Shown here: positions 9,416 through 31,749 of the stretch, one piece after another | How the letters are laid out: each line of letters opens with the position of its first letter | Numbering within the stretch: position 1 is the first letter of the stretch | DNA from: an uncultured Clostridia bacterium | GTDB lineage: Bacteria > Bacillota > Clostridia > Lachnospirales > CAG-274 | DNA: 64,000 nucleotides | Assembly: GCA_947591605.1 (NCBI GenBank) | Contig: CANQDF010000002.1 | Span: 1 to 64,000 of the forward strand | Direction of reading: 5' to 3' | The notes under the pieces: generated by a model | The model's database searches: none | What the model saw: only the letters and a program-made list of their open reading frames with translations | Told to the model about the DNA's origin: nothing | Program-made: the position numbers and the translations under genes

Positions 9416-12400
9416 TTACCTTGCCTTGCTCTGCTTTTTTACAAGCAATGCGCCAAGTATCACTGCAAGCAGACCGCTTATTGAAAGGGTTGCCATGTTG
9501 ACAGGCGAGCCTGTCTGTGGCAGTGTATCCGTGGACTGAGCATTTGCGGGTGTACCGCCCTGAGCAACAGTGCCGTCGTTTATCGAGCTGCCGCTGATGC
9601 TTACGTTTGTATCGGAATATCTGCCCGTATTATCCGATACGGAGCTGTCGCCGTAGCCGGTGATGCCTGCTTCGGCAGCGGGTATCTCCGTACCCTCGGG
9701 TGCAGCGCTATCATCGGGTGCAGCAGGTGTAATGTCGATATCCGTCTGAGGTACATCCTCGTATATATCGGGTATCTCGACAGGCTCATCCTCGGTGCGT
9801 GATACATCCTCGGATACATCTTCGGACACCTTCTCCGATACATCCTCGGACGATGCCTCGGATATTTCCTCAACATACTTGGTATCTGCCTTTCTTGACG
9901 AACCGCCGCCGCCACCGCCGCTCCTTGACGTGGTCTTGCGTGTGGTCACCTCTTCGGGTGCCTCGGTAGTGCCCTCCGTTGGCTGCTCCTCCGTTGTGGT
10001 GGTGCTGCTCTGTGAGCCGTCGGGCTCTTTTTCGGTAGTGCTCTCGGTATTTTCCGGCTCTGCGGAGCTTGGTTCCTCCGTATTAGGCTCGGCGGTGGTG
10101 CCCAGTGCGCCGCCGCTTGTTATATCATCGCCGCCGGGCTCTGTTGTGGTTCCCTGAGTAGGTGACTCCGTAGTAGCCTGTGTAGACTCATCGGTCGCAG
10201 CCTGAGTAGGTGACTCCGTAGTAGCCTGTGTAGACTCATCGGTCGCAGCCTGTGTAGGTGCTTCCGTAGTAGTCTGTGTAGATGCCTCGGTAGTAGCCTG
10301 TGTTGGCTTATGATCGGGACCCTGCGAATGAGTAGGAGCCTCTGTAGGTGCCTCGGTAGGCGCCTGTGTTGGAGCTTCCGTTGGAGCCTCTGTAGGTGCC
10401 TCTGTAGGTGCTTCCGTAGGTGCTTCCGTTGGTGCCTCGGTTGGTGCCTGTGTTGGTGCTTCCGTTGGAGCCTCTGTAGGCGCCTGTGTTGGTGCCTCCG
10501 TTGGAGCCTCTGTTGGTGCCTCTGTTGGTGCCTCTGTTGGTGCCTCCGTAGGTGCCTCTGTTGGAGCCTCTGTTGGTTCCTCCGTAGGTGACTCCGTAGA
10601 TGTTTCGCTGTACTGCTCGTTTGTAATACCTACAGTCTTTGCATCCTTACCGTCCACCGTTACCTTGTTTGTATCGTAGTGTGCAATAAATGTCTTGTCG
10701 TTGACGGTAAATGCAACTCCGTCCTTTACCTTATTGCCTGCACCGTCAAGCTCGAATACGTAGTAGTCCTTGTTGATCGTAAGACCCTCAAATACTACCT
10801 CGTTATTCTGTTCACCGTAATTGAGTGTTGCTTCCTCAAGATATTTTTCGTCGTTCTCGTTTGCGTAAAGACCGAAACGGAATGCCATATTAAGATCCTT
10901 CTCATATGAGGTAACGCTCTTCTTTACAATGATCTTTCCGGTGATAGGTGCATCCTCCATTATAACGGTGTTCTTGTCAACAAGGTCACCCTTTTCAAGA
11001 GTTTCGTTGTTTAACTTGCACTCGTATACATCGCCGTTTTCGTCAACGTAAATGTAAATGCTTTCTTCCTTAAGCTCGTAGCCGTCGGGAGCTGTTGTTT
11101 CGGTAAACTTGTAGTAGCCGAGCTTATCAAGCTTGAATGTTCCGTCTTCCTTGCCCGATGTCCACTCCTTTTTAGCTGCTCCGTCTACCGCTGTGCTGTC
11201 CGTCTTGGCTGTTCCCTTATTATCTACAGCCTCGACCTTAAGCCCTGCACCCTCGAGCTCATCGCCGCCGCCTACAGCACGTTTGCTGAATGTGACGTCT
11301 GCCTTTGACAGTGCGTCTTCCATTATAACGGTGTTTTTATCAACTTTGCTGCCCTTTTCAAGAGCTCCGTTGTTTAGCTTGCACTCGTATACATCGCCGT
11401 TTTCGTCAACGTAGATGTAAATGCTTTCTTCCTTAAGCTCGTAGCCGTCGGGAGCTGTTGTTTCGGTAAATTTGTAGTAGCCGAGCTTATCGAGCTTGAA
11501 TGTTCCCTCATCCTTGCCCGATGTCCACTCCTTGCTTGCCTTTCCGTCTACCGCTGTGCTGTCTGTCTTGGCTGTTCCATTATCATCTACAGCCTCGACC
11601 TTAAGCCCTGCACCCTCGAGCTCATCGCCGCCGCCTACAGCACGCTTGCTGAATGTGACGTCTGCCTTTTCGGGTGCGTCTTCCATTATAACCGTGTTCT
11701 CGTCAACCTTGCTGCCCTTTTCAAGAGTTCCGTTGTTTAACTTGCACTCGTATACATCGCCGTTTTCGTCAACGTAAATGTAAATGCTTTCTTCCTTAAG
11801 CTCGTAGCCGTCGGGGGCTGTTGTTTCGGTAAACTTGTAGTAGCCGAGCTTATCAAGCTTGAATGTTCCCTCATCCTTGCCCGATGTCCACTCCTTTTTA
11901 GCTGCTCCGTCTACCGATGTGCTGTCTGTCTTGGCTGTTCCCTTATTATCCACAGCCTCGACCTTAAGCCCTGCACCTTCGAGCTCATCGCCGCCGCCTA
12001 CAGCTCTCTTGCTGAATGTGACGTCTGCCTTTGATGGTGCGTCTTCCATTATAACGGTATTCTGGTCAACCTTGCTGCCCTTTTCAAGAGCTCCGTTGTT
12101 TAACTTACACTCGTATACATCGCCGTTTTCGTCAACGTAGATATATATGCTCTCTTCCTTAAGCTCGTAGCCGTCGGGAGCTGTTGTTTCGGTAAATTTG
12201 TAGTAGCCGAGCTTATCAAGCTTGAATGTTCCGTCTTCCTTTCCCGATGTCCACTCCTTTTTAGCTGCTCCGTCTACCGCTGTGCTGTCCGTATTGGCTG
12301 TGCCCTTATCGTCTACAGCCTCAACCTTAAGCCCTGCACCCTCAAGCTCGGCTCCGCCGCCTACAGCTCTCTTGCTGAATGTGACGTCCGCTCTTTCAAG

Positions 12401-15400
12401 TGCATCCTCCATAACAACTACGTTGCCGTCAACCTTTTGTGTATCCGCAGCAAGTCCCGTATCGGTCATCTCGCAGAGGTATACATCTCCGTTATTATCG
12501 ACATAGATGTAAATTGTTTCCTCATTTACGGCATAACCCTTTGGAGCCGTTGTTTCGGTAAAGCTGTAGTAATGATCCTGCTTGAGGGCAAACGTACCGT
12601 CCTCCTCGCCCGTTACCCAGCTTATTGTGTTATCCTTGTTGTTTATTGCATTGTCGGAGGTCGCCTTGCCGGACTTATCTATAGCCGCAAGCGTTATACC
12701 TGCGCCGTCAAGCTCCTCTCCGCCGCCTATTGCACGCTTGCTGAACCTGACTCCTTTGACCTCGTCATACATTACCACAGTGTTGGCGGTGTTTGGCTCC
12801 TGTGCCTTTACAAGCACCCTGTTGCCGCTGCCGTCATCGTAAACGGTACAATTGTATACCTTGCCGTCCTCATCCACAAATATATACATGGTTTCGGCTA
12901 CATTGTAACCGTCCGGAGCCGATGTTTCGGTAAATCTGTAGTAATTGTTCTTTTTAAGCTTAAATTTGCCGTCCTCGATAAGGCTGCCGTCCGAGTTTTT
13001 GGCGCCCGTTACCCAGCTCTTTTCATTTGTGCTGTAGTCGATAGCATCATTGCTCCACATATCTGCGAGCTTTTCATCTACCACACGGAGGGTTATCGCT
13101 GCGCCGTCGAGCTCCTTGCCGCCGCCCAGCTCACGCTTGCTGAATTCCACATCCGCATAGTTTGGTACGGTAGGCTCGTCAAACATGGTAACATTATCTC
13201 TTGCCGTTTCGTCGGGCACAAGGCCGTCCTCGCCCATGGTGCAGTACTGCACCATGCCGTCGCCGTTTATACGGAAGTAAATATCCTCGGCTTTATTGTA
13301 GCCCTTTGGAGGTTCTACCTCCGTAAGCCTGTAATAATCGCCCTTGTAAAGGGTATGCTTTGTGCTGCTTGTTATACTTACAGGGAAGGATCCGTCGTCC
13401 GTGGTTATATCCACACCGTATTTGTTTACCCAGTAAAGAGCAAGCTTAAAGCCGTATGACAGGTTCTTGCCCGTTTCAAGATCCGCCTTGTTTATGGCTA
13501 TCTCCGCAGCCTGACCCGTACCTGTACCTGAACCGTTTATATTGAACGAAAGCCTGAAGTTGGAGTTGTTTTCCTTATCGTTCCTCTTGTACCCCTGCAT
13601 ATAGGCTTCGTTTACAATATTGGTATCTTTTATATCGGTAATATTGTCTACATATGTTTCAAACCTGAGCACATACGCATCCCTGCCGTCGGGTATATTT
13701 ACAAGCAGATGATTTTCCTCATTTACGCTGTATGTAACAGAAACCTCTCCGCCTGCAGGCTTTACCGTGATATTGCCGTCCTTTATCTCCGCTTCGCCCT
13801 TATAGAGCTTTACGTTCCTTACCTTAAACACAGGGTCAAGCTCGTCAACGAGTACTGCATCGGTAAGCTCGGCCTTATTTGGGTTAATCTGTATCTCCCA
13901 GGCAGCATAGCTGTCGTTTCCGTTTGGATAAAGCTGACCGTTCTTTGTAATGTTGGGAGCCGATGGGATAGGTACGTCAAAGTGATTATCCACACTGACA
14001 TTGCCGTTGTCCGCCTCATAGGTCACATCCAGACCTATGCTGCCGTCATAGAGCTCATCCACATTGGCGTCCTTATCTGTCTTAAACTCAAAATGGAGGC
14101 TGTTGCTCTTGTCGCCGTCCCAGTTTTGATTTTGATGGTTGCTGAGGTCAACAATTATCTTGCCGTCCTCTTCCGTCACTTCACCCTCGCCGAATTCGGT
14201 AAGAGTTCCGTCTGAGCCCTTGAGCCATACCTTGCCGTCCGTAAAGCCCTCGGGTATATCAAAGGTAAGCTTGCCGTCGGTATACTTTTCGTTATCCCAG
14301 CCGCTGTTTACATCAATATCGCCCTCAAGCACACCTGTTTCGGAGTCATAGCTGCTGTCGCCGAGCTTTGCATACTTATCCGCATCAACGCCGCTTATGG
14401 AACCGCCTATGCTTACATCTGCGCCCACGCCTATGCCTTCACCTACGGAAGCGTCAAGGTGAGCATTGGTCGAGTTGAGGTTTCTCCACTCTCCGCTGTT
14501 GAGAGCGCCGTCCCTGATATGTACATCGGTAACAAACTCAACCTTTGCAGGACCCGTTATATCGCCCACATCCACTGTGAGCTTGTGTGTGTTTTCATCA
14601 TAGGTATATCTGTCCCTGCCGAGCACCTCGCCGTTTAATGTAACGCTGCCCTCAACAAGATCAAGGGTAACATCTCCGTCCCAGTCGCCCTTGGAAACAT
14701 CTATGGTGAGCTTTGTGCCGTCAAGAGGCACCTCGGACTCGTTTACGTTTACATCCCATGTTATGGTGCCGTTGAGCGGATTTGGTGATGCGCTTCCGCT
14801 AAGCACCTTAAGCTGAACACTGCCGGACGCCGATGCCTCATTCCTGACATCGCCCATCTCAAAGGCTGCCTTTGAGGTAAACAACCTGCCGCTGCCTATT
14901 ACATCGCCCATTGCCTCGGGCTTAATTACGCTGTCAAACACAAAGTCAAGCTCGTCCGAGCAGCCCTCCGACGCCCTGTAATATACCTTGCCGCTTGCAT
15001 CAACATAATAATTGCTGCCGTCAAGCTCCTCAACGGAGCCTGCCTTTTCAAGCGCCCTGCCGTTAAGCTCGGCGCCCTTTACATCGGCTGCGTCGTCACA
15101 GTCAAACTCTATAAGTGCGCCCGAAATATCCTGCTTGAATTTGTTTGCGGTAACAGGCCACTTAAGAGAATTTTCCTCCTTGTTGTATACAGGCGTATCC
15201 GCCTTTACATAACCAAGGTTATACCTTGCTTCACCCTCTGTATCGGAGAGGCTTTCATCTCCGCCCTTTGCGTATAAGGAGGCGTTGTTTTTAAGCGTGC
15301 CCTCCTTGCCGTAAAGGTTATCCGTTGCCTTTGTGCGGAACTCGATAACACTCCATGAGCCGTTTGCCCAGTCGGGCAGAACATAGGTAAGCACTCCGTC

Positions 15401-16195
15401 TTTATAGGTGACATTACCCACATTTGTACTGGAGTTGAATTTTAAACTGCCCTCAACATATTCTCCCGCATTGCTTGCACGCAGGTCGTCAACTATCTTC
15501 ATACCGCCGAGGTTTGCCTGATAATTGTCTGTCTGCAGGTTTATTGTCCATACAAACTCATCGGTCTTTTCGTCATAAGAACCGCCCTTGTAGATATGGG
15601 CATCAAATACGTCCGGCGAGCTGCTGTCCTTGTAGTGGAGCACTATCTGACCCAGATCGCCAAAGTCGAGCTCTACCTCGCCTCTGCTGCTGTCAAGCGC
15701 TTCCTTATGGATATTGGCGCTTATGACGAACTTGCCGGTGACCTCACCTATGTCTACGGCACCATCCTTTACAGTCACCGTAACATGACCATCAGCATCC
15801 ATATAAACAGACATGATCGTATCGTGTGTGCCCTCACGCTCTACCTTGATATTAGCCGTACCCGATGTGTCTATCACATCCGAGGGAACATCAAACTCAA
15901 AGGTATCCCCCTTTTGCACATCGCTTGGCAGCGTAAACTCAAACATAATGCCAAGCACATTGACTATATCAAACGGATTTGCATCCGAATCACCGAGGAT
16001 CCTTATATCTTCCCGGTTGTCTTTTTGCGCCTTCTGGTACGCCTCATAGTCAATTATTGTAACGTTTGTGATAATATCGTCGCTGTTGAGAGATGCCGCA
16101 AAAACATTTACGCCGACACACTGCAATATCATTACAAGAGCCGTAAAAAAAGCCGCAAATCTGCCCAACCGCTTATTTTTTGCAATTCTATACAC
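9416..16195 (-). CDS. Giant LPQTG-anchored adhesin with SpaA/CnaB-like repeats
   Basis: 2,259 residues from the GTG at 16195, which has AAGGGGGTG upstream. Starting there gives a clean signal peptide (about 1-32, basic start then FAAFFTALVMILQ, ending VFAAS). Residues about 35-930 are adhesin beta-sandwich regions like bacterial fibrinogen/collagen-binding proteins. From about 930 come SpaA/CnaB-like modules with FSK lysine and FTETTAPDGY glutamate signatures typical of isopeptide-forming domains. Four of these (1269-1752) are almost identical 121-residue units. A divergent module, a TEAP/TQAP-rich stalk, a Ser/Gly/Asp-rich region, LPQTG (about 2225), a hydrophobic segment and a basic tail follow. 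A sortase would anchor it to the wall; none is in this window. Ligand unknown. Confidence 0.9.
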   Translation of the reverse strand: MYRIAKNKRLGRFAAFFTALVMILQCVGVNVFAASLNSDDIITNVTIIDYEAYQKAQKDNREDIRILGDSDANPFDIVNVLGIMFEFTLPSDVQKGDTFEFDVPSDVIDTSGTANIKVEREGTHDTIMSVYMDADGHVTVTVKDGAVDIGEVTGKFVISANIHKEALDSSRGEVELDFGDLGQIVLHYKDSSSPDVFDAHIYKGGSYDEKTDEFVWTINLQTDNYQANLGGMKIVDDLRASNAGEYVEGSLKFNSSTNVGNVTYKDGVLTYVLPDWANGSWSVIEFRTKATDNLYGKEGTLKNNASLYAKGGDESLSDTEGEARYNLGYVKADTPVYNKEENSLKWPVTANKFKQDISGALIEFDCDDAADVKGAELNGRALEKAGSVEELDGSNYYVDASGKVYYRASEGCSDELDFVFDSVIKPEAMGDVIGSGRLFTSKAAFEMGDVRNEASASGSVQLKVLSGSASPNPLNGTITWDVNVNESEVPLDGTKLTIDVSKGDWDGDVTLDLVEGSVTLNGEVLGRDRYTYDENTHKLTVDVGDITGPAKVEFVTDVHIRDGALNSGEWRNLNSTNAHLDASVGEGIGVGADVSIGGSISGVDADKYAKLGDSSYDSETGVLEGDIDVNSGWDNEKYTDGKLTFDIPEGFTDGKVWLKGSDGTLTEFGEGEVTEEDGKIIVDLSNHQNQNWDGDKSNSLHFEFKTDKDANVDELYDGSIGLDVTYEADNGNVSVDNHFDVPIPSAPNITKNGQLYPNGNDSYAAWEIQINPNKAELTDAVLVDELDPVFKVRNVKLYKGEAEIKDGNITVKPAGGEVSVTYSVNEENHLLVNIPDGRDAYVLRFETYVDNITDIKDTNIVNEAYMQGYKRNDKENNSNFRLSFNINGSGTGTGQAAEIAINKADLETGKNLSYGFKLALYWVNKYGVDITTDDGSFPVSITSSTKHTLYKGDYYRLTEVEPPKGYNKAEDIYFRINGDGMVQYCTMGEDGLVPDETARDNVTMFDEPTVPNYADVEFSKRELGGGKELDGAAITLRVVDEKLADMWSNDAIDYSTNEKSWVTGAKNSDGSLIEDGKFKLKKNNYYRFTETSAPDGYNVAETMYIFVDEDGKVYNCTVYDDGSGNRVLVKAQEPNTANTVVMYDEVKGVRFSKRAIGGGEELDGAGITLAAIDKSGKATSDNAINNKDNTISWVTGEEDGTFALKQDHYYSFTETTAPKGYAVNEETIYIYVDNNGDVYLCEMTDTGLAADTQKVDGNVVVMEDALERADVTFSKRAVGGGAELEGAGLKVEAVDDKGTANTDSTAVDGAAKKEWTSGKEDGTFKLDKLGYYKFTETTAPDGYELKEESIYIYVDENGDVYECKLNNGALEKGSKVDQNTVIMEDAPSKADVTFSKRAVGGGDELEGAGLKVEAVDNKGTAKTDSTSVDGAAKKEWTSGKDEGTFKLDKLGYYKFTETTAPDGYELKEESIYIYVDENGDVYECKLNNGTLEKGSKVDENTVIMEDAPEKADVTFSKRAVGGGDELEGAGLKVEAVDDNGTAKTDSTAVDGKASKEWTSGKDEGTFKLDKLGYYKFTETTAPDGYELKEESIYIYVDENGDVYECKLNNGALEKGSKVDKNTVIMEDALSKADVTFSKRAVGGGDELEGAGLKVEAVDNKGTAKTDSTAVDGAAKKEWTSGKEDGTFKLDKLGYYKFTETTAPDGYELKEESIYIYVDENGDVYECKLNNETLEKGDLVDKNTVIMEDAPITGKIIVKKSVTSYEKDLNMAFRFGLYANENDEKYLEEATLNYGEQNNEVVFEGLTINKDYYVFELDGAGNKVKDGVAFTVNDKTFIAHYDTNKVTVDGKDAKTVGITNEQYSETSTESPTEEPTEAPTEAPTEAPTEAPTEAPTEAPTEAPTQAPTEAPTEAPTQAPTEAPTEAPTEAPTEAPTEAPTEAPTQAPTEAPTEAPTHSQGPDHKPTQATTEASTQTTTEAPTQAATDESTQATTESPTQAATDESTQATTESPTQGTTTEPGGDDITSGGALGTTAEPNTEEPSSAEPENTESTTEKEPDGSQSSTTTTEEQPTEGTTEAPEEVTTRKTTSRSGGGGGGSSRKADTKYVEEISEASSEDVSEKVSEDVSEDVSRTEDEPVEIPDIYEDVPQTDIDITPAAPDDSAAPEGTEIPAAEAGITGYGDSSVSDNTGRYSDTNVSISGSSINDGTVAQGGTPANAQSTDTLPQTGSPVNMATLSISGLLAVILGALLVKKQSKAR
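10140..10610 (-). repeat. Low-complexity TEAPTEAPT-encoding tract
   Basis: 12-base degenerate repeats encoding (T-E/Q-A-P) units, plus TTESPTQAATDES-type repeats, form a Pro/Thr-rich wall-spanning stalk of the adhesin. Confidence 0.9.
10940..12391 (-). repeat. Four 363-bp tandem repeats inside the adhesin
   Basis: Units 12391-12029, 12028-11666, 11665-11303 and 11302-10940, each 121 codons, begin with the codons for ADVTFSKRA and are nearly identical at DNA level. Such units can expand or contract by recombination and so change adhesin length. Confidence 0.9.
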
Positions 16196-16222
16196 ATTTT
16201 CACCCCCTTGATATACGATTGC

Positions 16223-16274
16223 GGGGACGTCCTTATGCACTCCGCACAAGCGATCGGGCGGAGCAGGCACCCCC
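16223..16274 (-). promoter_or_regulatory. Structured 5' leader of the adhesin mRNA
   Basis: Between promoter and start codon, the minus strand can fold into nested stems: GGGG/CCCC (16274-16271 with 16226-16223), GTGC/GCAT, and CTCCGC/GCGGAG (16263-16258 with 16045-type partner at 16245-16240). It matches no riboswitch class I recognise; its role is unknown. Confidence 0.4.
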
Positions 16275-16313
16275 GTGGTATAAAAAAGCAAAAAACTTTA
16301 TTATATTTAACTT

Positions 16314-23287: not shown

Positions 23288-23322
23288 GTAATCAATAAAC
23301 AATAATTGGTACACTATCAATA

Positions 23323-23398
23323 TGGGCAAAGCTGCCGAAAGGCAGTGACGCAAAGCCAGATGGGTCTAAGGTCTTTGGACTATGACAGCCGGTTGCCT
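23323..23398 (+). ncRNA. Cyclic di-GMP-I riboswitch (GEMM-I)
   Basis: The P1 arms GGCAA...TTGCC enclose a hairpin GCTGCC-GAAA-GGCAG with a GNRA tetraloop. The conserved joining sequence GACGCAAAGCC follows, then a second hairpin carrying the CTAAG/TATGA tetraloop-receptor pair and the closing GCCGG. This is the consensus architecture of class I c-di-GMP aptamers. No U-tailed terminator lies between it and the gene. The arms CCAAA (about 23460) and TTTTGG surround the ribosome-binding site, so translational control is possible. Confidence 0.92.
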
Positions 23399-23489
23399 GC
23401 TTATGCAGAGATGGGTATTTATTATTCATATTCAATAAGGGCATCATATTTGAAGTGACCAAACTATCTTACGAAAAGAGGTTTTGGTT

Positions 23490-23789
23490 ATGAAAAAATT
23501 TATGTTATCTGTTATCACTTTAGCAATGCTTGCAGCTGCGCCTACAGCGGCTTACGCACAGGCTACGGTTCAGACGCCTGCTCCCGCACAGACTGCCGCT
23601 CCTGCCGCAAAGGATCCCGCTGCCGTTATGGTCACAATTAACGGCGTTAAAATGACGCAAGCACAAGCAAGGCTCGTTATTCTGCAAAACATCAAAAACC
23701 ACAAGCAGATGACGCCCGAGGAAATGACTGCTTACGTTAACTCTCTTGAGGCTGCAGCCGAGGCTGAAACAGCTTCTCCCGCAAAATAA
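23490..23789 (+). CDS. Small secreted protein under c-di-GMP control
   Basis: 99 residues: signal peptide 1-23 (MKKFMLSVITLAMLAAAPTA, cleavage near AYA), an Ala/Pro/Gln-rich linker, then a helical domain (VMVTINGVKMTQAQARLVILQ..., MTPEEMTAYVNSLEAA). No known enzyme motif and no wall anchor. ATG 23490 has AGAGG at eight bases; a TTG two codons earlier is less likely. It sits 90 bases after a c-di-GMP-I aptamer and ends at a strong terminator, so it is a single-gene riboswitch regulon member, perhaps for surface or biofilm traits. Family not recognised. Confidence 0.75.
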   Translation: MKKFMLSVITLAMLAAAPTAAYAQATVQTPAPAQTAAPAAKDPAAVMVTINGVKMTQAQARLVILQNIKNHKQMTPEEMTAYVNSLEAAAEAETASPAK

Positions 23790-23979: not shown

Positions 23980-26900
23980 TTACTTTCTCATATCTCGGTT
24001 TATATCAAATATATCAAGCTTATCCCTGTCGATATGCTTTTCCATTACCTCGACCATAGCGGTGAAGGTATCCATTGAGGTTATAAGCGATACGGAGCTT
24101 TCAACGGCGGTACGTCTTATCTTAAAGCCGTCCGATGTCTTGTTGTTGGCTTTTTTTGGTATGTCCACTATAAGGTCGACAACGCCGCTGCGTATCGTAT
24201 CTATAATATTGGGTACGCCCTCGCTTATCTTTTTTACCGTCTTTACATCTATGCCCGCATTGGCAATGGCTTTTGCGGTACCGCTTGTGGCAATAAATCG
24301 GCAGCCGAGTTTATCCAGCCTTTTTGCAAGCTCCACAAACTCCTCGTGATCCTTGCCTCTTACGGTGGCAACTATGGTGCTGCCCTTTTGTGGTATTGTC
24401 ATGCCTGCCGCAAGGAAGCCCTTGTAAAGCGCATTGTGCAGGTTGTAGCCCACGCCGAGCACCTCGCCTGTGGAACGCATTTCGGGGCCTAAGCTTACCT
24501 CCACCTGGGGCAGCTTTTCCGTAGAGAATACAGGCACCTTTACGGCAACAACATTGGGTATGTCGCAGATACCCGTTCCGTAGCCCATATCCTTGAGCTT
24601 TTCACCCAGCATTACCCTTGTTGCAATGTCTATAACGGGTACGCCCGTTACCTTTGTAATGTATGGCACGGTCCTTGACGAGCGTGGGTTTACCTCTATT
24701 ATGTTAAGCTCCCCGTTGTAATCGATAAACTGTATGTTTATCATACCTATTACCTTAAGCTCTACGGATATTTTTTTGGTTTCGTCCATTATCTGAGCTT
24801 TTATCTCGTCGCTTATATGCTGAGGAGGATAGATGGATATACTGTCGCCCGAATGTATGCCCGCTCTTTCAAGGTGCTCCATTATACCGGGAATGTATAC
24901 GTCCGTACCGTCGCAGATAGCGTCCACCTCAATTTCACGTCCGCTCAGATAGCGGTCTATAAGCACGGGGTTTTTGCTGTCCTTTTCAAACGCCTCCGCA
25001 AGGTACTTTACAAGCTCGTCCTTGTTGTAGGTTATCTCCATGCCCTGACCGCCCAGAACATAGCTTGGGCGCACCAGTACGGGGAAGCCCAGCCTTTCGG
25101 CAACGCTTATACCCTCGTCAATGCTCCATACGCCCTCACCCTTGGGGCGCTTTATATTGAGCTTTTCAAGTATCTCGTCAAACTTTTCCCTGTCCTCTGC
25201 GGCGTCTATCTGCTCCGGCTTTGTGCCGTAGATAGGTATATTCATCTCGTCAAAGAAGTTTGCAAGCTTTATTGCCGTCTGTCCGCCAAACTGCAGTATA
25301 ACTCCGTCGGGACGCTCCTTTTCCACCACGTTGAGCACGTCCTCTTCGGTAAGAGGCTCAAAGTACAGCTTGTCCGCAGTATCAAAGTCCGTACTTACGG
25401 TTTCGGGGTTGTTGTTTACTATTATGGTCTGCATGCCCGCCTTTTTGAGCGCCATAATGGAGTGAACGGAGCAGTAGTCAAACTCGATGCCCTGACCTAT
25501 GCGTATGGGGCCCGAGCCTATGACCATAACCTTTTTTCTGTCGGATATTACGGACTCGTCCTCCATATCGTAGCTTGAATAGTAATAAGGCGTAACAGCC
25601 TCAAACTCGCCTGCACAGGTATCTACCATCTTGTAAACGGGCATAATGTCATACTTTTGCCTGAGCTTGTATATATCGGGAGGCGTGCAGCCCACAAAGC
25701 GTGATATTGCCTTGTCCGAGAAGCCCTTTTCCTTGAAGTAGCGGAGGTTTTCCTCGTTAAAGTCCTCCAGCTTCATGCTCTTTAGCTCCTCCTCAAGCTT
25801 TACAAGGTTGTTTATCTTGTTTATAAAAAACGGATCCATACCCGTTATATCGCAAACCTTTTCCACACGGTAGTTGCGGCGCAGCATTTCGGCAAGGTCA
25901 AAAAGTCTTTCGTCATCGGGCACCTGCACCCTCTTTTTAAGCTCCTCTATAGAGCGCATGGCAGACGATTTTCTGTCCAGACCGTACTGACCTATTTCAA
26001 GAGAACGTATACCCTTTAACAGGGCTGCCTCAAAGCTCTTGCCTATGCTCATTATCTCTCCGGTCGCCATCATCTTGGTGCCGAGAGTCCTCTTTGCGCC
26101 GAAGAACTTGTCAAAGGGCCACCTTGGGAATTTGAGCACAACATAGTCTATTGTAGGCTCAAAGCAGGCAAAGGTCTTGCCCGTGACCGCATTTTTTATC
26201 TCGTCAAGGTTATATCCCAGCGCTATTTTTGCCGCAACCTTAGCAATGGGGTAGCCCGTCGCCTTTGAAGCAAGCGCCGAGGAACGGCTCACACGGGGGT
26301 TTATCTCTATAACAGCATATTTAAAGCTGTTTGGGTCAAGCGCAAACTGTACGTTGCAGCCGCCCTTTATCTCTATAGAATCAATTATGTCTATGGCGGC
26401 CTTGCGGAGCATCTGATACTCGTAATCGCTTAAGGTCTGCGCAGGTGCAACAACAATACTGTCGCCCGTATGTACTCCTACCGGGTCAACGTTTTCCATA
26501 GAGCAGACGGTTATACAGTTGCCTGCTCCGTCACGCATTACCTCAAACTCTATCTCCTTCCAGCCTGCTATGCTTTTTTCAATAAGCACCTGACCCACAC
26601 GGCTGAGGTGCAGACCCTGCGTGCATATCTCCCTGAGCTCCGCCTCGTTTTTGGCAATGCCGCCTCCGGTACCGCCAAGGGTGTATGCGGGACGCACTAT
26701 AACGGGGTATCCTATGCTCTCGGCAAAGCTTAAAGCCGATTCCACATCGGTAACTATATCGCTGTCGACTATGGGCTGGTTGGTACGCTCCATAAGCCTT
26801 TTAAAGCTGTCCCTGTCCTCGCCCTCCTTAATGGAGGCAATTGACGTACCTATCACATTAACATTGTATTTATCCAGTATGCCCTTGTCGTACAGCTCAC

Positions 26901-27198
26901 AGCTGAGGTTAAGGCCTGTCTGACCGCCCATGCCCGCAATAATGCTGTCGGGGTGCTCCTTTGCTATTACCTTTTCAAGAAAATCTACCGTAAGAGGCTC
27001 AATATAGGTATAGTGCGCCATGCCTATATCCGTCATTATGGTGGCAGGGTTTGAGTTTACAAGCACTACCTCCACGCCCTCCTCCTTAAGGGACTGGCAT
27101 GCCTGAGTGCCCGAGTAGTCAAACTCCGCAGCCTGCCCTATAACTATGGGGCCGGAGCCTATAACAAGCACTTTTTTTATAGAACTGTCCTTAGGCAT
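23980..27198 (-). CDS. carB: Carbamoyl-phosphate synthase large subunit
   Basis: 1,072 residues, full length. Makes carbamoyl phosphate from bicarbonate, ATP and ammonia delivered by CarA, for pyrimidine and arginine synthesis. Two homologous ATP-grasp halves are visible ([21 protein letters not shown] at the start and [20 protein letters not shown] near residue 555). The C-terminal MGS-type allosteric domain is at about 930-1072. Its ATG overlaps the end of carA by eight bases. Last gene of the pyrBCF-carAB operon. Confidence 0.97.
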
Positions 27199-28279
27199 TA
27201 GTCTTAACCTCCTCTATAATTTTTAAAAATCTGTCAAAAAGCATTTGCGTATCAAGCGGACCGGGGCTTGCCTCGGGGTGGAACTGTACCGAATATATGG
27301 GCTTTGTTTTGTGCCTGATACCCTCTATACTGCCGTCGTTTACGTTTATAAAGGTTGGCTCGACCTCGTCGCTTAAGTCGCACACAACATAGTTGTGGTT
27401 CTGGCTGGTGATGTATACCCTGCCCGTCTGCAGATCCTTTACGGGATGATTGCCGCCGTGGTGGCCGAATTTTAGCTTTGTGGTGTTGCAGCCAAGCGCA
27501 AGGCTTATAAGCTGATGACCCAGGCATATGCCAAGCACGGGCTTGCCGCTGTCAATAAGCGCCTTTACCGTTTCTATGACCTCGGGTATATCCTTTGGAT
27601 CTCCGGGGCCGTTGCCCAAAAAGAGTGCATCGGGGTTTACATCAAGTATCTCCTCTGCCGATGTAAATGCGGGAAATACGCTCAGCTTGCAGCCTCTTTT
27701 GGAAAGATCCCGCAGTATACCCTGCTTTATGCCGCAGTCCAGCACCGCAAGGTGGGTGCCTATGCCGTTTACCGTATAAGGCTTGTCTATTGTTACCTCC
27801 TTGACGGCATACACGTTGGTATAGGTATCAAACTTTTGCTTGATCTGGCTTGGCGTAAGGTCGTCCACTCTTGTGGTTATAATGCCCTTCATACAGCCCT
27901 TTTCCCTTATGGTTCTTGTAAGAGCCCTTGTATCTATGCCCTCAAGACCCATTATCTTGTTCTGCTTTAAAAAGCCGTCAAGCACCATCTCGCATCTCCA
28001 GTTGTTGGGCATATCGCATTTTTCCCTCACTATAAGGGCTTTGAGGAAAGGCTTTCTGCTTTCCATATCGTCAAGGTTTATGCCGTAGTTGCCTATAAGG
28101 GGATAGGTCATTGTAACTATCTGCCCCGCAAAGGAGGGGTCGGTAAGTGTTTCCTGATACCCGGTCATACCCGTAGTGAACACTACCTCTCCCACGGTTT
28201 CCTTTATATAGCCGAAGGCGCTGCCCTTGAACTTCATACCGTTTTCAAGTATCAGCTCTGCCTTTATGGTTTTTTCCAT
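27191..28279 (-). CDS. carA: Carbamoyl-phosphate synthase small subunit
   Basis: 362 residues. The glutaminase partner of CarB. N-terminal CPSase domain ([20 protein letters not shown]), then a class I glutamine amidotransferase with the nucleophile in GICLGHQLI and the His-Glu pair in [11 protein letters not shown]. Start ATG 28279 has AAGGAGA at a workable distance; the ATG at 28291 sits directly on that site. Overlaps carB by eight bases and follows pyrF with a small gap. Confidence 0.96.
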
Positions 28280-28281
28280 GG

Positions 28282-29214
28282 TCAAATACATCTCCTTAAA
28301 TCGTTTTTCATATCTATGCAGGCTTGCCTTGCCGCAAGAGCAAAGTCCTTTTCGTCGCCGAAGCAGTCCTTGTAGTTATCCTTTTGGTGGGCTGCTATAA
28401 TGCCTCTTGACGAATTTACTATTGCACCTATGCCGTTTTTGTCAAAGCACACCGCAAGATCCTCCGCTTTGCCGCCCTGTGCGCCGTAGCCCGGCACAAG
28501 GAAGAAGGTGTGAGGCATAAGCTCCCTGAGCTTTTTTGCCTGCTCGGGGTGGGTAGCGCCTACCACTGCGCCGATGCCGCTGTAGCCCTTGCTGCCCATA
28601 AGCTCTCCGCCCCATTTTTCAATAAGGCTGCCCATCTTTTGATAGACCGTCATACCGTCCGTTTCAAGGTCCTGTATCTCGCCGCTGTTTGGGTTTGATG
28701 TTTTGGCAAGTACAAAGATCCCCTTGTCGTAGTCCCTGCAGTCCTTTACAAACGGCGTTACGCCGTCGGAGCCGAGGTATGCGTTTATGGTTATAAAATC
28801 CTGCGCAAAATCGCTCTCAAAGGTGTTTTCGCCTATGTCGACCATACCTATGTGGCCGTCCGAGTAGGCCTCTGCGGTGGAGGCTATATCGCTCCTTTTT
28901 ATATCGCCTATTACAATAAGGCCCTTGCTCTTTGCATAGGCGCAGGTTTTTGCATATGCCTTAAGACCCTCTATGCCGTAGCGCTCATACATGGCTATCT
29001 GAGGCTTTACCGCCGGTACAAGGTCAAAGATGCGGTCTATTACAGCCTTGTTGAACTTATACATGGACTTTGCCGCAGCCTTTTTTGTAAAGCCGTATTT
29101 TTTGTAGTATTTTTCCGTAATATAAGCGGGTATATAGCTTAACCTTGGGTCAAGACCAACCACAGTCGGGTTGCCCGTATGTTCTATTTTGTTTATAAGC
29201 TCGTCTATTACCAA
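28282..29214 (-). CDS. pyrF: Orotidine-5'-phosphate decarboxylase
   Basis: 310 residues, the longer type-2 PyrF subfamily. Converts OMP to UMP, the last step of de novo UMP synthesis. TVVGLDPRLSYIP near the N-terminus and the catalytic segment GLIVIGDIKRSDIASTAEAY are intact. Start is TTG 29214: AAGGAGG lies eight bases upstream, whereas the longer frame to 29256 overlaps pyrC without a site. It ends within two bases of the carA start, so translation is probably coupled. Confidence 0.95.
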   Translation of the reverse strand: MVIDELINKIEHTGNPTVVGLDPRLSYIPAYITEKYYKKYGFTKKAAAKSMYKFNKAVIDRIFDLVPAVKPQIAMYERYGIEGLKAYAKTCAYAKSKGLIVIGDIKRSDIASTAEAYSDGHIGMVDIGENTFESDFAQDFITINAYLGSDGVTPFVKDCRDYDKGIFVLAKTSNPNSGEIQDLETDGMTVYQKMGSLIEKWGGELMGSKGYSGIGAVVGATHPEQAKKLRELMPHTFFLVPGYGAQGGKAEDLAVCFDKNGIGAIVNSSRGIIAAHQKDNYKDCFGDEKDFALAARQACIDMKNDLRRCI

Positions 29215-29227
29215 TGTACTCTCCTCC

Positions 29228-30517
29228 TTACCTAAGCCTGCCGTATTCGGCAGCAACTCTGCCGCCCACTATGGTGCAGGCTGCAATGCCTTTTACTCTC
29301 CTGCCGTGGAACGGTGTGTTTTTGCCCTTGCTGTACATTTTTTCCTTGTCTATGCAATACTCTCTGTCGGGGTCTATTACCGTTATATCGGCTCTCGAAC
29401 CTACGGAAAGATTGCCTATATCGCTTCTGCCGAGTATCCTTGCGGGGTTTGCGCTCATCTTTTCCACAAGCTCGTACTCCGTAAGCCAGCCGCCCTCAAC
29501 AAGCTCCGTTATTGCAAGGGGCAAAGCCGTTTCAAGCCCGATTATGCCGTTTGCCGCATTTTCAAACTCGCAGTTTTTCTCGTCTATGTGGTGCGGAGCG
29601 TGGTCTGTTGCAATAACCTCTATAATGTTATCTTTTAACGCCTGCTTAATTGCCTCAACGTCCTTTTTGCTCCGCAGCGGAGGATTCATCTTGAAGTTTG
29701 CGTCATACTCCGTTATATCCTCCTCCGACAAGGTAAAGTGATGAGGCGTCGCCTCAGCCGTTACCTTTACTCCTCTCTCCTTAGCCTGCCTTATAAGCTC
29801 CACACTGCCCGCAGTGCTTATATGGCAGAGATGTATGGGCGCACCCACGCTCTGCGCAAGTATCATATCCCTTGATACGATTACCTCCTCGCTGTCGCAG
29901 CTTATGCCCTTAAGCCCAAGCAGAGCAGCTCTGTCGCCTGCGTTTATCTGACCCTTGCCCGCAAGCAGCTTGTCCTCGCAGTGGTCAAACACGGGCAGGG
30001 CAAACATGCCCGCATATTTAAGGGCGGTTTTCATAAGGGCGGCATTTTCCACGCTTTTGCCGTCCTCGGACAGGGCGCATGCTCCCACGGCTGCCATCCT
30101 GCCTATGTCGGCAAGCTCCTCACCGTTTTGCCCCTTGGTTATTGCGCCTATGGGCAAAACGTTTACTGCCGCCTCTCTTTCCGCCTTGAGCTTTATATAC
30201 TCAACAACTATTTCGTTGTCGGTCACGGGGTTTGTGTTTGGCATTGCGCATATGGTGGTAAAGCCGCCCGCAGCGGCAGCCATGCTGCCCGTTTTTATTG
30301 TTTCCTTGCGCTCGTAGCCGGGCTCCCTCAGATGCACATGCAGGTCTATAAGCCCCGGCACCACCCATTTGCCCGCAGCGTCTATCACCTCGTCGGCCTC
30401 CGAGGATATATTGTCGTCAACAAGCTCTATGCTGCCGCCGTTTACAAGCACATCCTTGACCGAGTCGACGCCGTTTGCAGGGTCTATCACCCTGCCTCCC
30501 TTTATAAGCAGCTTCAT
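29228..30517 (-). CDS. pyrC: Dihydroorotase
   Basis: 429 residues, type I dihydroorotase. Closes carbamoyl aspartate to dihydroorotate. Metal-binding DLHVHLREPG at about 58-67, further ligands in the DHCEDKLLA and HICHLST-like segments, and ATDHAPHH near residue 300. Second gene of the operon, 12 bases after pyrB and 13 before pyrF. pyrD/pyrK (dihydroorotate dehydrogenase) and pyrE are not in this window. Confidence 0.96.
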   Translation of the reverse strand: MKLLIKGGRVIDPANGVDSVKDVLVNGGSIELVDDNISSEADEVIDAAGKWVVPGLIDLHVHLREPGYERKETIKTGSMAAAAGGFTTICAMPNTNPVTDNEIVVEYIKLKAEREAAVNVLPIGAITKGQNGEELADIGRMAAVGACALSEDGKSVENAALMKTALKYAGMFALPVFDHCEDKLLAGKGQINAGDRAALLGLKGISCDSEEVIVSRDMILAQSVGAPIHLCHISTAGSVELIRQAKERGVKVTAEATPHHFTLSEEDITEYDANFKMNPPLRSKKDVEAIKQALKDNIIEVIATDHAPHHIDEKNCEFENAANGIIGLETALPLAITELVEGGWLTEYELVEKMSANPARILGRSDIGNLSVGSRADITVIDPDREYCIDKEKMYSKGKNTPFHGRRVKGIAACTIVGGRVAAEYGRLR

Positions 30518-30529
30518 CTTATTACCTCC

Positions 30530-31450
30530 TCATCGGTTTGCATCGGTGAGCAGCTTAAGTATAGCCATCCTTACCGCAACACCGTTTTTGACCTGTATGT
30601 TTATTACCGAATTTTTGCCGTCCACTACCTCCGTAGCCAGCTCAACGCCCCTGTTTACGGGGCCGGGGTGCATGATAAGCACATCCTTTTTTGCGGATTT
30701 GAGCGTTTCCGCATTTATGCCGAAAAGGCTTGAATATTCCCTCAGACCGGGGAACGGCATATTTTTTTGCCTTTCAAACTGTATGCGCAGACCCATTATT
30801 ACATCCGCATTTGCTATGGCGCCCTTTATATCGCTTGTAACGTCCACGCCAAGCGAGCGCATGGAGCCGCTTATAAGCGTTGAGGGGCCTGCAAGAGTAA
30901 CGTTTGCGCCAAGCTTTGTAAGGCCGAAGGCGTTGCTCCTTGCCACCCTTGAATGCGATATGTCGCCCAGTATCGTAACGTTTAGCCCGTCAAAATGCTT
31001 TTTGTAATCCATAATGGTAAACAGATCCAAAAGCGCCTGCGTGGGGTGCTCGTTTGAGCCGTCGCCCGCATTTATGACGGAGGCGTTTACATTTCTTGCA
31101 AGCACATCTGCGGCGCCCGTCATACGGTGGCGTATTATCATTACGTTTATGCCCATCTGGTCAAGAGTTTTACCCGTATCTATAAGGCTTTCCCCCTTGT
31201 TTACGCTGCTTGTGGCAACACCCAGATCCTTTACCATGGCGCCCAGGTAATCGCCCGCAAGCATAAAGGACATCCTTGTCCTGGTAGAGTTTTCGTAAAA
31301 CATGGTAACGATGCTGCTTTTTTTAAGCTCGTCGCTCCTCAGCGAGGGGTTATCTATCTTTTCTTTCATTATCTTTGCGGTTTCAAGGATGGTCATTATC
31401 TCATCCTCGCTCAGATCCCTGAGCCCCAGAAGATCCTTCCTGGCAAACAT
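30530..31450 (-). CDS. pyrB: Aspartate carbamoyltransferase catalytic subunit
   Basis: 306 residues. Joins carbamoyl phosphate and aspartate. Carbamoyl-phosphate-binding FYENSTRTRMSF at about 51-62, HPTQALLDLFT and GDISHSRVARSN are all present. Start ATG 31450 has AAGGAGG. First structural gene of pyrBCF-carAB; no pyrI regulatory subunit is next to it. It follows a 265-base leader with a peptide and an attenuator (31545-31714), so expression is probably set by transcription termination. Confidence 0.97.
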   Translation of the reverse strand: MFARKDLLGLRDLSEDEIMTILETAKIMKEKIDNPSLRSDELKKSSIVTMFYENSTRTRMSFMLAGDYLGAMVKDLGVATSSVNKGESLIDTGKTLDQMGINVMIIRHRMTGAADVLARNVNASVINAGDGSNEHPTQALLDLFTIMDYKKHFDGLNVTILGDISHSRVARSNAFGLTKLGANVTLAGPSTLISGSMRSLGVDVTSDIKGAIANADVIMGLRIQFERQKNMPFPGLREYSSLFGINAETLKSAKKDVLIMHPGPVNRGVELATEVVDGKNSVINIQVKNGVAVRMAILKLLTDANR

Positions 31451-31544: not shown

Positions 31545-31596
31545 AAAAAAGACAATAAAAAGGGTTTAAAAACACTCTTTCCATTGTCTTTTTTTT
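31545..31596 (-). terminator. Attenuator in the pyr operon leader
   Basis: On the minus strand AAAAAAGACAAT (5' arm within 31594-31583) pairs perfectly with ATTGTCTTTTTT (31556-31545). The stem can extend inward with G-U pairs and ends in a run of U. The stop codon of the leader peptide lies in the loop, so a ribosome finishing the peptide would block the hairpin. Confidence 0.85.
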
Positions 31597-31679
31597 GCAA
31601 ACATAAAAAATAAAATCAAATAAGAAAAAAACCATGACATATTGTTCTTATGAAGTTTGCAGCGGGACTTGATGAACAT
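31566..31679 (-). CDS. Leader peptide of the pyrBCF-carAB operon
   Basis: 37 codons, ATG 31679 to TAA 31568-31566, with a strong AAGGAGG eight bases upstream. The peptide starts MFIKSRCKLHKNN and has a hydrophobic, Phe-rich middle (WFFSYLILFF). That middle is encoded by a very U-rich stretch (7 T, then T-rich codons) just before the attenuator. The arrangement parallels the E. coli pyrBI leader, where low UTP slows RNA polymerase in the U-tract, the ribosome catches up, and the terminator cannot form. The peptide product itself need not have a function. Confidence 0.75.
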   Translation of the reverse strand: MFIKSRCKLHKNNMSWFFSYLILFFMFAKKRQWKECF

Positions 31680-31720
31680 AGCCGTTTCCTCCTTACCGTT
31701 GTATTTTGCTTATCTAATGA

Positions 31721-31749
31721 ATTTTAACATTTATACGGATAAATGTCAA
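31721..31749 (-). promoter_or_regulatory. pyr operon promoter
   Basis: TTGACA (31749-31744), 17-base spacer, TAAAAT (31726-31721) on the minus strand. The expected start is near 31714, about 35 bases before the leader peptide ATG. Confidence 0.8.

Follow-up and report, generated by a model that had tools for sequence, protein, structure and literature searches.

A probable leader-peptide attenuator of the pyr operon in Clostridia that lack PyrR

PyrR is the usual regulator of pyr genes in Firmicutes. In PyrR attenuators (RF00515), as in the Bacillus pyr operon, premature termination controls the pyr genes and the PyrR loop lies next to the terminator; in PyrR translational repression of the mycobacterial type, the loop overlaps the Shine-Dalgarno (SD) sequence of the structural gene. 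Attenuators of the trp/his type place a leader ORF upstream of a terminator, with a run of codons specific for the product and an antiterminator. In the E. coli pyrBI operon, which is preceded by the leader pyrL, low UTP slows RNA polymerase and the following ribosome blocks the terminator (PMC10135430, PMC5021804). Bacillota are classed among the species in which RNA polymerase outruns the ribosomes ('runaway' transcription; PMC13323073, PMC7858274), and this should make ribosome-gated attenuation useless in the phylum.

We analysed a 64,000-nt stretch of DNA (the window) from an uncultured gut-type Clostridia bacterium, on whose minus strand all the features of a pyr leader and operon are found (Table 1). 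The five genes, in the order pyrB-pyrC-pyrF-carA-carB and without pyrI, all score above their NCBIfam cut-offs, so that the pyrBCF-carAB operon named in the first-pass annotation stands; the real start of pyrF may lie downstream of the annotated TTG. That annotation had also described a consensus promoter, an AAGGAGG, a 37-codon peptide with a U-rich second half and a perfect 12-bp hairpin with the stop codon in its loop and ending in U6, and we could locate every one of these parts. The promoter is the best of four found (1.4 in shuffles) and is followed by TCATTAGATAAGCAAAATAC, with no U-run of at least three at the presumed transcript start, as placed from the promoter only. The SD core (AAGGAGG, 31694-31688) precedes an ORF for the peptide MFIKSRCKLHKNNMSWFFSYLILFFMFAKKRQWKECF, whose UAA (31568-31566) lies inside the terminator loop. 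The terminator is of the A/U-tract type, with arms AAAAAAGACAAU (31594-31583) and AUUGUCUUUUUU (31556-31545), the T6 belonging to the 3' arm, and an inner GGAAAG/CUUUUU able to lengthen the stem. An Rfam search of the window matched no family at the leader, and RF00515 was not found. No comparable leader was seen upstream of pyrE and pyrKD of the same genome. Elsewhere in the window we noted a c-di-GMP-I riboswitch (23315-23400, plus strand, 73.7 bits) ahead of a secreted-looking protein of 101 aa (23484-23789), and a 2291-aa surface protein (9416-16291, minus strand) in which repeated SpaA-like domains, a stretch rich in proline and threonine and, at the C-terminus, an LPQTG sortase signal can be recognized by eye.

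Table 1. Features of the pyr leader and operon in the window
Feature	Position	Strand	Evidence
Putative leader promoter of the pyr operon, TTGACA, 17 bp, TAAAAT	31721..31749	-	11/12 matches to consensus
Leader SD region GUAAGGAGGAAAC, 5' strand of the predicted SD/anti-SD hairpin	31684..31696	-	predicted pairing
Leader ORF, 37 codons, ATG start	31566..31679	-	frame kept in 46/49 pyrR-less relatives
U-rich tract, proposed UTP-sensitive slow-down region	31599..31632	-	26 of 34 nt are U, by direct count
Putative anti-Shine-Dalgarno GUUUUUUUCUUAU, within the U-tract	31620..31632	-	cognate pairing statistics
Intrinsic terminator (putative attenuator), 12-bp stem + U6	31545..31594	-	kept in 49 pyrR-less + 27 PyrR-family loci
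pyrB, aspartate carbamoyltransferase catalytic subunit	30530..31450	-	NF002032, 369.8 bits, cut-off 263
pyrC, dihydroorotase	29228..30517	-	TIGR00857, 458.5 bits, cut-off 279
pyrF, orotidine-5'-phosphate decarboxylase	28282..29256	-	TIGR02127, 258 bits, cut-off 110.6
carA, carbamoyl-phosphate synthase small subunit	27191..28291	-	NF009475, 474 bits, cut-off 221
carB, carbamoyl-phosphate synthase large subunit	23980..27198	-	NF003671, 1547.7 bits, cut-off 599

The closest described counterpart is pyrBI, with which the locus shares a leader peptide, encoded between the promoter and the structural gene and served by an SD of its own, a U-rich second half, an intrinsic, U-tailed terminator that a ribosome on the ORF can reach, a position directly upstream of pyrB, and no evident need for a specific peptide or for specific amino-acid codons. 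In the fold of the E. coli leader the SD is likewise paired, with a UUUUUCUUCCCG tract, though no more strongly than in shuffles (z -0.32, a single sequence). Several features differ, however. The stop codon lies in the stem or loop here and 3 nt before pyrB in pyrL (135 nt), the terminator is of the A/U-tract type and not GC-rich, and the U-run at the transcript start, which in E. coli serves UTP reiteration as an accessory layer, is not seen at the presumed start. Unlike pyrBI, the element is found in Bacillota, ahead of a pyrBCF-carAB operon without pyrI, shows significant SD/anti-SD pairing and probably descends from a version controlled by PyrR (both discussed below). By inspection, peptide, terminator and operon differ, and the leader is unrelated in sequence to that of E. 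coli; we propose that the locus likely works like pyrBI, and do not claim common descent of the element.

For comparison we used 40 Clostridia loci from a genome scan, with pyrB 70-92% identical, and further loci obtained by searching 295 whole genomes of the order. We examined as much as 450-730 nt ahead of each pyrB and reduced the set to 86 distinct leaders, 76 of which carry the pyr terminator ([AG][AG]CAAT-type 5' arm, -TTG[TC]C-T5-6). Forty-nine loci are pyrR-less: those of the window's own family (f1), those of f17, a family with records under the names Neoanaerotignum, Coprocola and Tyzzerella An114, and one f19 locus (family labels are those of the search tool). We chose the leader starts blind, by SD strength and start codon only and ignoring ORF length, with 200 shuffles as control. 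In 46 of the 49 pyrR-less loci the leader frame proved to run uninterrupted as far as the stem, compared with 14 and 15 for the other frames and a mean of 12.9 (maximum 22) in shuffles, and in 24 of 27 loci of the PyrR families it is open to the terminator (other frames 1 and 1; shuffles 2.6). The three exceptions among the 49 are L031, whose contig contains Ns, L123 and L156. In the pyrR-less relatives the stop lies at a median of 8 nt into the stem, and 43 of the 49 ORFs have their end within a span from 25 nt ahead of the stem start to 45 nt past it. Since the stop is not tied to one of the three hairpin frames, it is its position that is kept, and not the frame in which the stem is read. 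In 43 of 46 homologous leaders there is a promoter with at least 9/12 matches, at a median of 39 nt upstream of the leader start. The first-pass annotation had called for alignment of related leaders and had named a lack of conservation as its refutation; this outcome did not occur, as start, SD, open frame, U-tract and terminator all turn out to be kept in 46 of the 49 pyrR-less loci. Because nearly every sampled relative that has an orthologous pyrB shows the same layout ahead of this gene, and because the exact terminator is found only at pyrB (once per genome, in the 9 of 48 family genomes matching the pattern), the layout goes beyond chance, and we consider a chance origin to be ruled out by these comparisons. 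At L018 the terminator stands ~540 nt upstream of pyrB, and at L026 none was found upstream of this gene.

A stop codon in the stem is no proof of gating by itself, because stop codons in Bacillota often adjoin terminators (PMC13323073, PMC7858274). The leader might accordingly be an ordinary small protein gene with its own terminator, with pyrB served by constant read-through or by another promoter and no regulation involved. Against this, the peptide is poorly conserved and yet its frame and stop position are kept. Between close relatives, pN/pS of the leader peptide is 0.63 in the pyrR-less families and 0.82 in the PyrR families; pyrR-less leaders range from 19 to 50 aa, several sister pairs have only 22-40% of leader residues in common, and the peptide of the window is 36% identical to that of its nearest relative, L011. 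Moreover, the leader is tied to pyrB in several families, and in other families a PyrR loop is placed on its SD. An unregulated small gene is thus hard to credit. As the peptide is nearly free to change and variable in length, it would be translation that matters and not the peptide product; what has been kept would be the ability of a ribosome to start, run and stop at the terminator.

The tract ahead of the terminator is rich in U. In 46 relatives, U makes up 0.50-0.63 of the 40 nt before the stem, against a background of 0.37 upstream, and the U-tracts of pyrR-less leaders contain more U than those of the families with a PyrR loop (0.54 vs 0.44, p=1.5e-6). This preference extends to synonymous codons: in counts that ignore shared ancestry, third-position U (Phe, Tyr, Ile, His, Asn, Asp, Cys) reaches 0.79 in leaders and 0.54 in pyrB of the same contigs, and the Ile, Ser and Leu codons of leaders are shifted to AUU, UCU and UUA/UUG, the Phe codons likewise turning to the U-rich form. 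A synonymous bias across amino acids argues for base content and not for one amino acid. It bears on whether the leader could be an attenuator of the trp/his type, sensing for example Phe- or Arg-tRNA through an antiterminator hairpin. Phe does supply 20% of the final 18 codons, and every one of 36 leaders contains it, but Phe and pyrimidines are unconnected, U-rich synonyms of Ile and Ser are also preferred, Arg is not enriched, and there is no codon run for a product of the operon, which makes pyrimidines and carbamoyl phosphate. Nor did we find specific complementarity between the U-tract and the 5' arm of the terminator: cognate pairing (-5.65 kcal/mol) is weaker than non-cognate pairing (-6.20 kcal/mol), and an antiterminator formed by these two was rejected. 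With the enriched residues following U content and no antiterminator pairing, we rejected amino-acid attenuation as a most improbable account of the leader.

The U-tract is predicted to pair with the ribosome site of the leader. In the window, GUAAGGAGGAAAC (31696-31684) is predicted to pair with GUUUUUUUCUUAU (31632-31620) with a probability of ~0.99 for a leader ending at 31600, which falls to 0.60 with a longer leader; the whole fold from SD to U-tract is no stronger here than in shuffles (z -0.41). Across the pyrR-less leaders, pairing of the U-tract with their own SD and its variable flanks is stronger than in dinucleotide shuffles (mean z -1.67, p=1.4e-10), and in the PyrR families it is not significant (z -0.21). 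Further, pairing of a pyrR-less SD with its own tract is 2.65 kcal/mol stronger than with the tracts of other species (p=3e-7; p=2e-6 with 38 non-redundant loci), a gain that is absent from the PyrR families and from three control regions. Simple counts do not discriminate, with a pairing probability of at least 0.5 in 43 real, 33 shuffled and 39 swapped cases for 46 leaders. Since 33 of 46 shuffled tracts also reach this value, U-rich tracts pair with any purine-rich SD; base composition alone gives much of the pairing, and only the extra strength of the cognate pairs is significant. These covariation-like statistics support a second role for the U-tract of the pyrR-less families, as a putative anti-Shine-Dalgarno, and this doubling is new here. 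For leaders of f31, f76 and f97, the advantage of cognate pairs is no more than suggestive (p=0.09, n=15). We also observed in f17 leaders, for example L034, L035 and L037, a strong hairpin at -215 to -154 from pyrB (-19 to -21 kcal/mol) that ends in AAGUGCU followed by a U-run and is perhaps a pause hairpin. The f17 peptide motif GISAFFFQ resembles MRDIGAFFYY of the PyrR families.

Given the pairing, the same ribosome gate could in principle answer to general translation capacity (initiation rate, ribosome supply, ppGpp), the U-richness serving only to pair with a purine-rich SD. An anti-SD within the U-tract would alone favour pyrimidines, and the f31 and f76 leaders, which have less U (0.3-0.5), still keep ORF and terminator. 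However, the U-tract extends beyond the anti-SD, and U lies far above C: C/(C+U) is 0.20, and 44% of the paired SD G's stand opposite U, though C would pair better. The synonymous U bias in the leaders and the presence of the element on the pyr operon only likewise point away from a general signal, which we regard as unlikely.

The first-pass annotation had seen no clear PyrR-binding loop at this leader, and none could be found there or at any of the 49 pyrR-less loci. The search for pyrR that it had suggested gave nothing above the cut-off in the source genome (98.8% complete; best match 43.5 bits, cut-off 138), in the 48 genomes of f1 or in any genome of f17. Only sub-threshold matches to RF00515 were obtained in the source genome; the best of them adjoins, by eye, mraZ-like and PucR-like genes, and we took it as a chance match. 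On the other hand, pyrR is present in 58 of the 295 genomes of the order, including f2, f7, f8, f21, f22 and f24. In these six families a PyrR loop (CCUUUAA..UYGRUCCnGnGAGRYC..AAAAGG) lies 39-44 nt upstream of the leader start, its 3' arm being the SD of the leader itself (23 loci listed), and the leaders are longer, with the frame running to the terminator before pyrB. Sites of this hybrid PyrR/leader-peptide layout are L114-L160 (f2, f7, f8, f21, f22, f24), L231, L233, L259, L260, L262 and L263. In most of the sister families the loop stands on the leader SD, well over 100 nt before the terminator, and not next to the terminator as in RF00515 attenuators, with which the common ground is premature termination controlling pyr genes and, in related families, a PyrR loop in the same leader. 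The placement over an SD recalls the mycobacterial type, but the target would be a leader ORF whose translation controls a terminator, and the window itself has neither loop nor pyrR.

One could also think of a PyrR-like or other unknown RNA-binding regulator, or a riboswitch, acting on the leader, since PyrR, judging by the loop, acts on the same leader in related families. But pyrR and its loop are missing as described, no Rfam family matches the leader, and leader sequence and length are too variable for a conserved aptamer, so that such a factor has little probability. In the pyrB tree, f1 and f17 group together (97/90), with f19 next to them, nested among PyrR-bearing families. Because the pyrR-less clade is nested among families with the loop on the leader SD, the ribosome-gated terminator is probably older than the loss of PyrR and outlived it. 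The simplest history would be an ancestral attenuator with PyrR on the leader SD, in which PyrR and its loop were lost once and the ribosome-gated terminator was retained. A terminator without any remaining sensor would be expected to decay, and the pyrR-less one did not. We also noted at L172 (G016) two PyrR loops upstream of pyrB, one before a terminator and the second overlapping the SD of pyrB itself. A second pyrB-pyrC pair was observed at L007 1483-3700 (G000 contig C45), behind lspA-rluD. It looks catalytically dead, with SVRAK in place of the STRTR motif of the ATCase, CxK in place of the HxH of the dihydroorotase and Gly in place of the catalytic Asp of TDHAPHH; similar matches adjoin pyrR in G037, G023, G100 and G141, and the pair is retained in pyrR-less genomes.

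We propose that the element is a transcription attenuator gated by translation of the leader peptide, with UTP as the most likely signal and with the U-tract as both RNA polymerase brake and anti-SD, a reading to which we would give a probability of roughly two in three. A ribosome translating the leader would end at the stop in or next to the terminator, cover its 5' arm and block termination, and the pyr genes would be read; should translation of the leader fail or come too late, the hairpin would form and transcription would end. Synthesis of the 34-nt U-tract before the terminator should need mostly UTP, and at low UTP RNA polymerase would slow and the ribosome would gain time to load and catch up. 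Once transcribed, the U-tract may pair with the ribosome site and start codon region of the leader and shut out late ribosomes; at high UTP the polymerase would pass quickly, the ribosome site would be hidden and the terminator would form. Since the gate needs only initiation before completion of the U-tract, it could work even where the polymerase generally outruns the ribosomes. That leader translation would decide between termination and read-through is well supported by the comparative data; UTP as the signal and the kinetic role of the U-tract we infer. In the sister families that bear pyrR, the same gate would be closed by PyrR at the leader SD, where loop and gene are present and binding is presumed from what is known of the PyrR family.

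The pyrBI-style leader-peptide attenuator of the first-pass annotation is supported by these results: frame, U-tract and terminator are maintained together, pyrR and its loop are absent, and codons favour U whatever the amino acid. Beyond it go the PyrR loop on the ribosome site of the same leader in related families, the U-tract as anti-SD, and the similar leaders found elsewhere in the class. More tentatively, at somewhat less than even odds, the pyr terminator of Clostridia may be gated in general by access to the leader ribosome site, PyrR closing the gate in most pyrR-bearing families of the order and the U-tract, as brake and anti-SD, having taken over where PyrR was lost, so that a race between ribosome loading and synthesis of a UTP-demanding tract would stand in for a protein sensor. 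Neither an anti-SD gate nor PyrR on a leader SD is reported in the open-access literature searched, which does not cover the main reviews of pyr regulation, and priority is not established. If true, both represent new kinds of attenuator architecture, and this in a phylum supposed to be without transcription-translation coupling. The maintenance of the leader for translation into the terminator across dozens of Clostridia, with and without PyrR, suggests contact between ribosomes and RNA polymerase, at least near the beginning of transcripts, and the leader offers compact constructs for testing such coupling in Bacillota. It also suggests that a metabolite sensor such as PyrR can be lost while its gate stays, and the repertoire of PyrR would gain loops acting on leader peptides.

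Finally, a class-wide sample shows that leader and terminator recur before pyrB without a PyrR loop in f76, f97 and f31, the last including a pyrR-less genus; those of f54 and f47 have the loop, placed on the SD of the leader. Starts were again chosen blind here, and family-specific patterns served to locate the stems; all 22 of these leaders have a frame that runs as far as the stem, against 3 and 6 for the other two frames. Lachnospiraceae-type pyrB (f6) has no such leader. In f76 (L227, L246-L251) the leader ORF lies between pyrR and pyrB; at L227, L246 and L247 the terminator stem begins with the UAG stop of this ORF, and at L248 the ORF continues beyond the terminator to an end that overlaps the start of pyrB, a position that E. 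coli pyrL comes close to.
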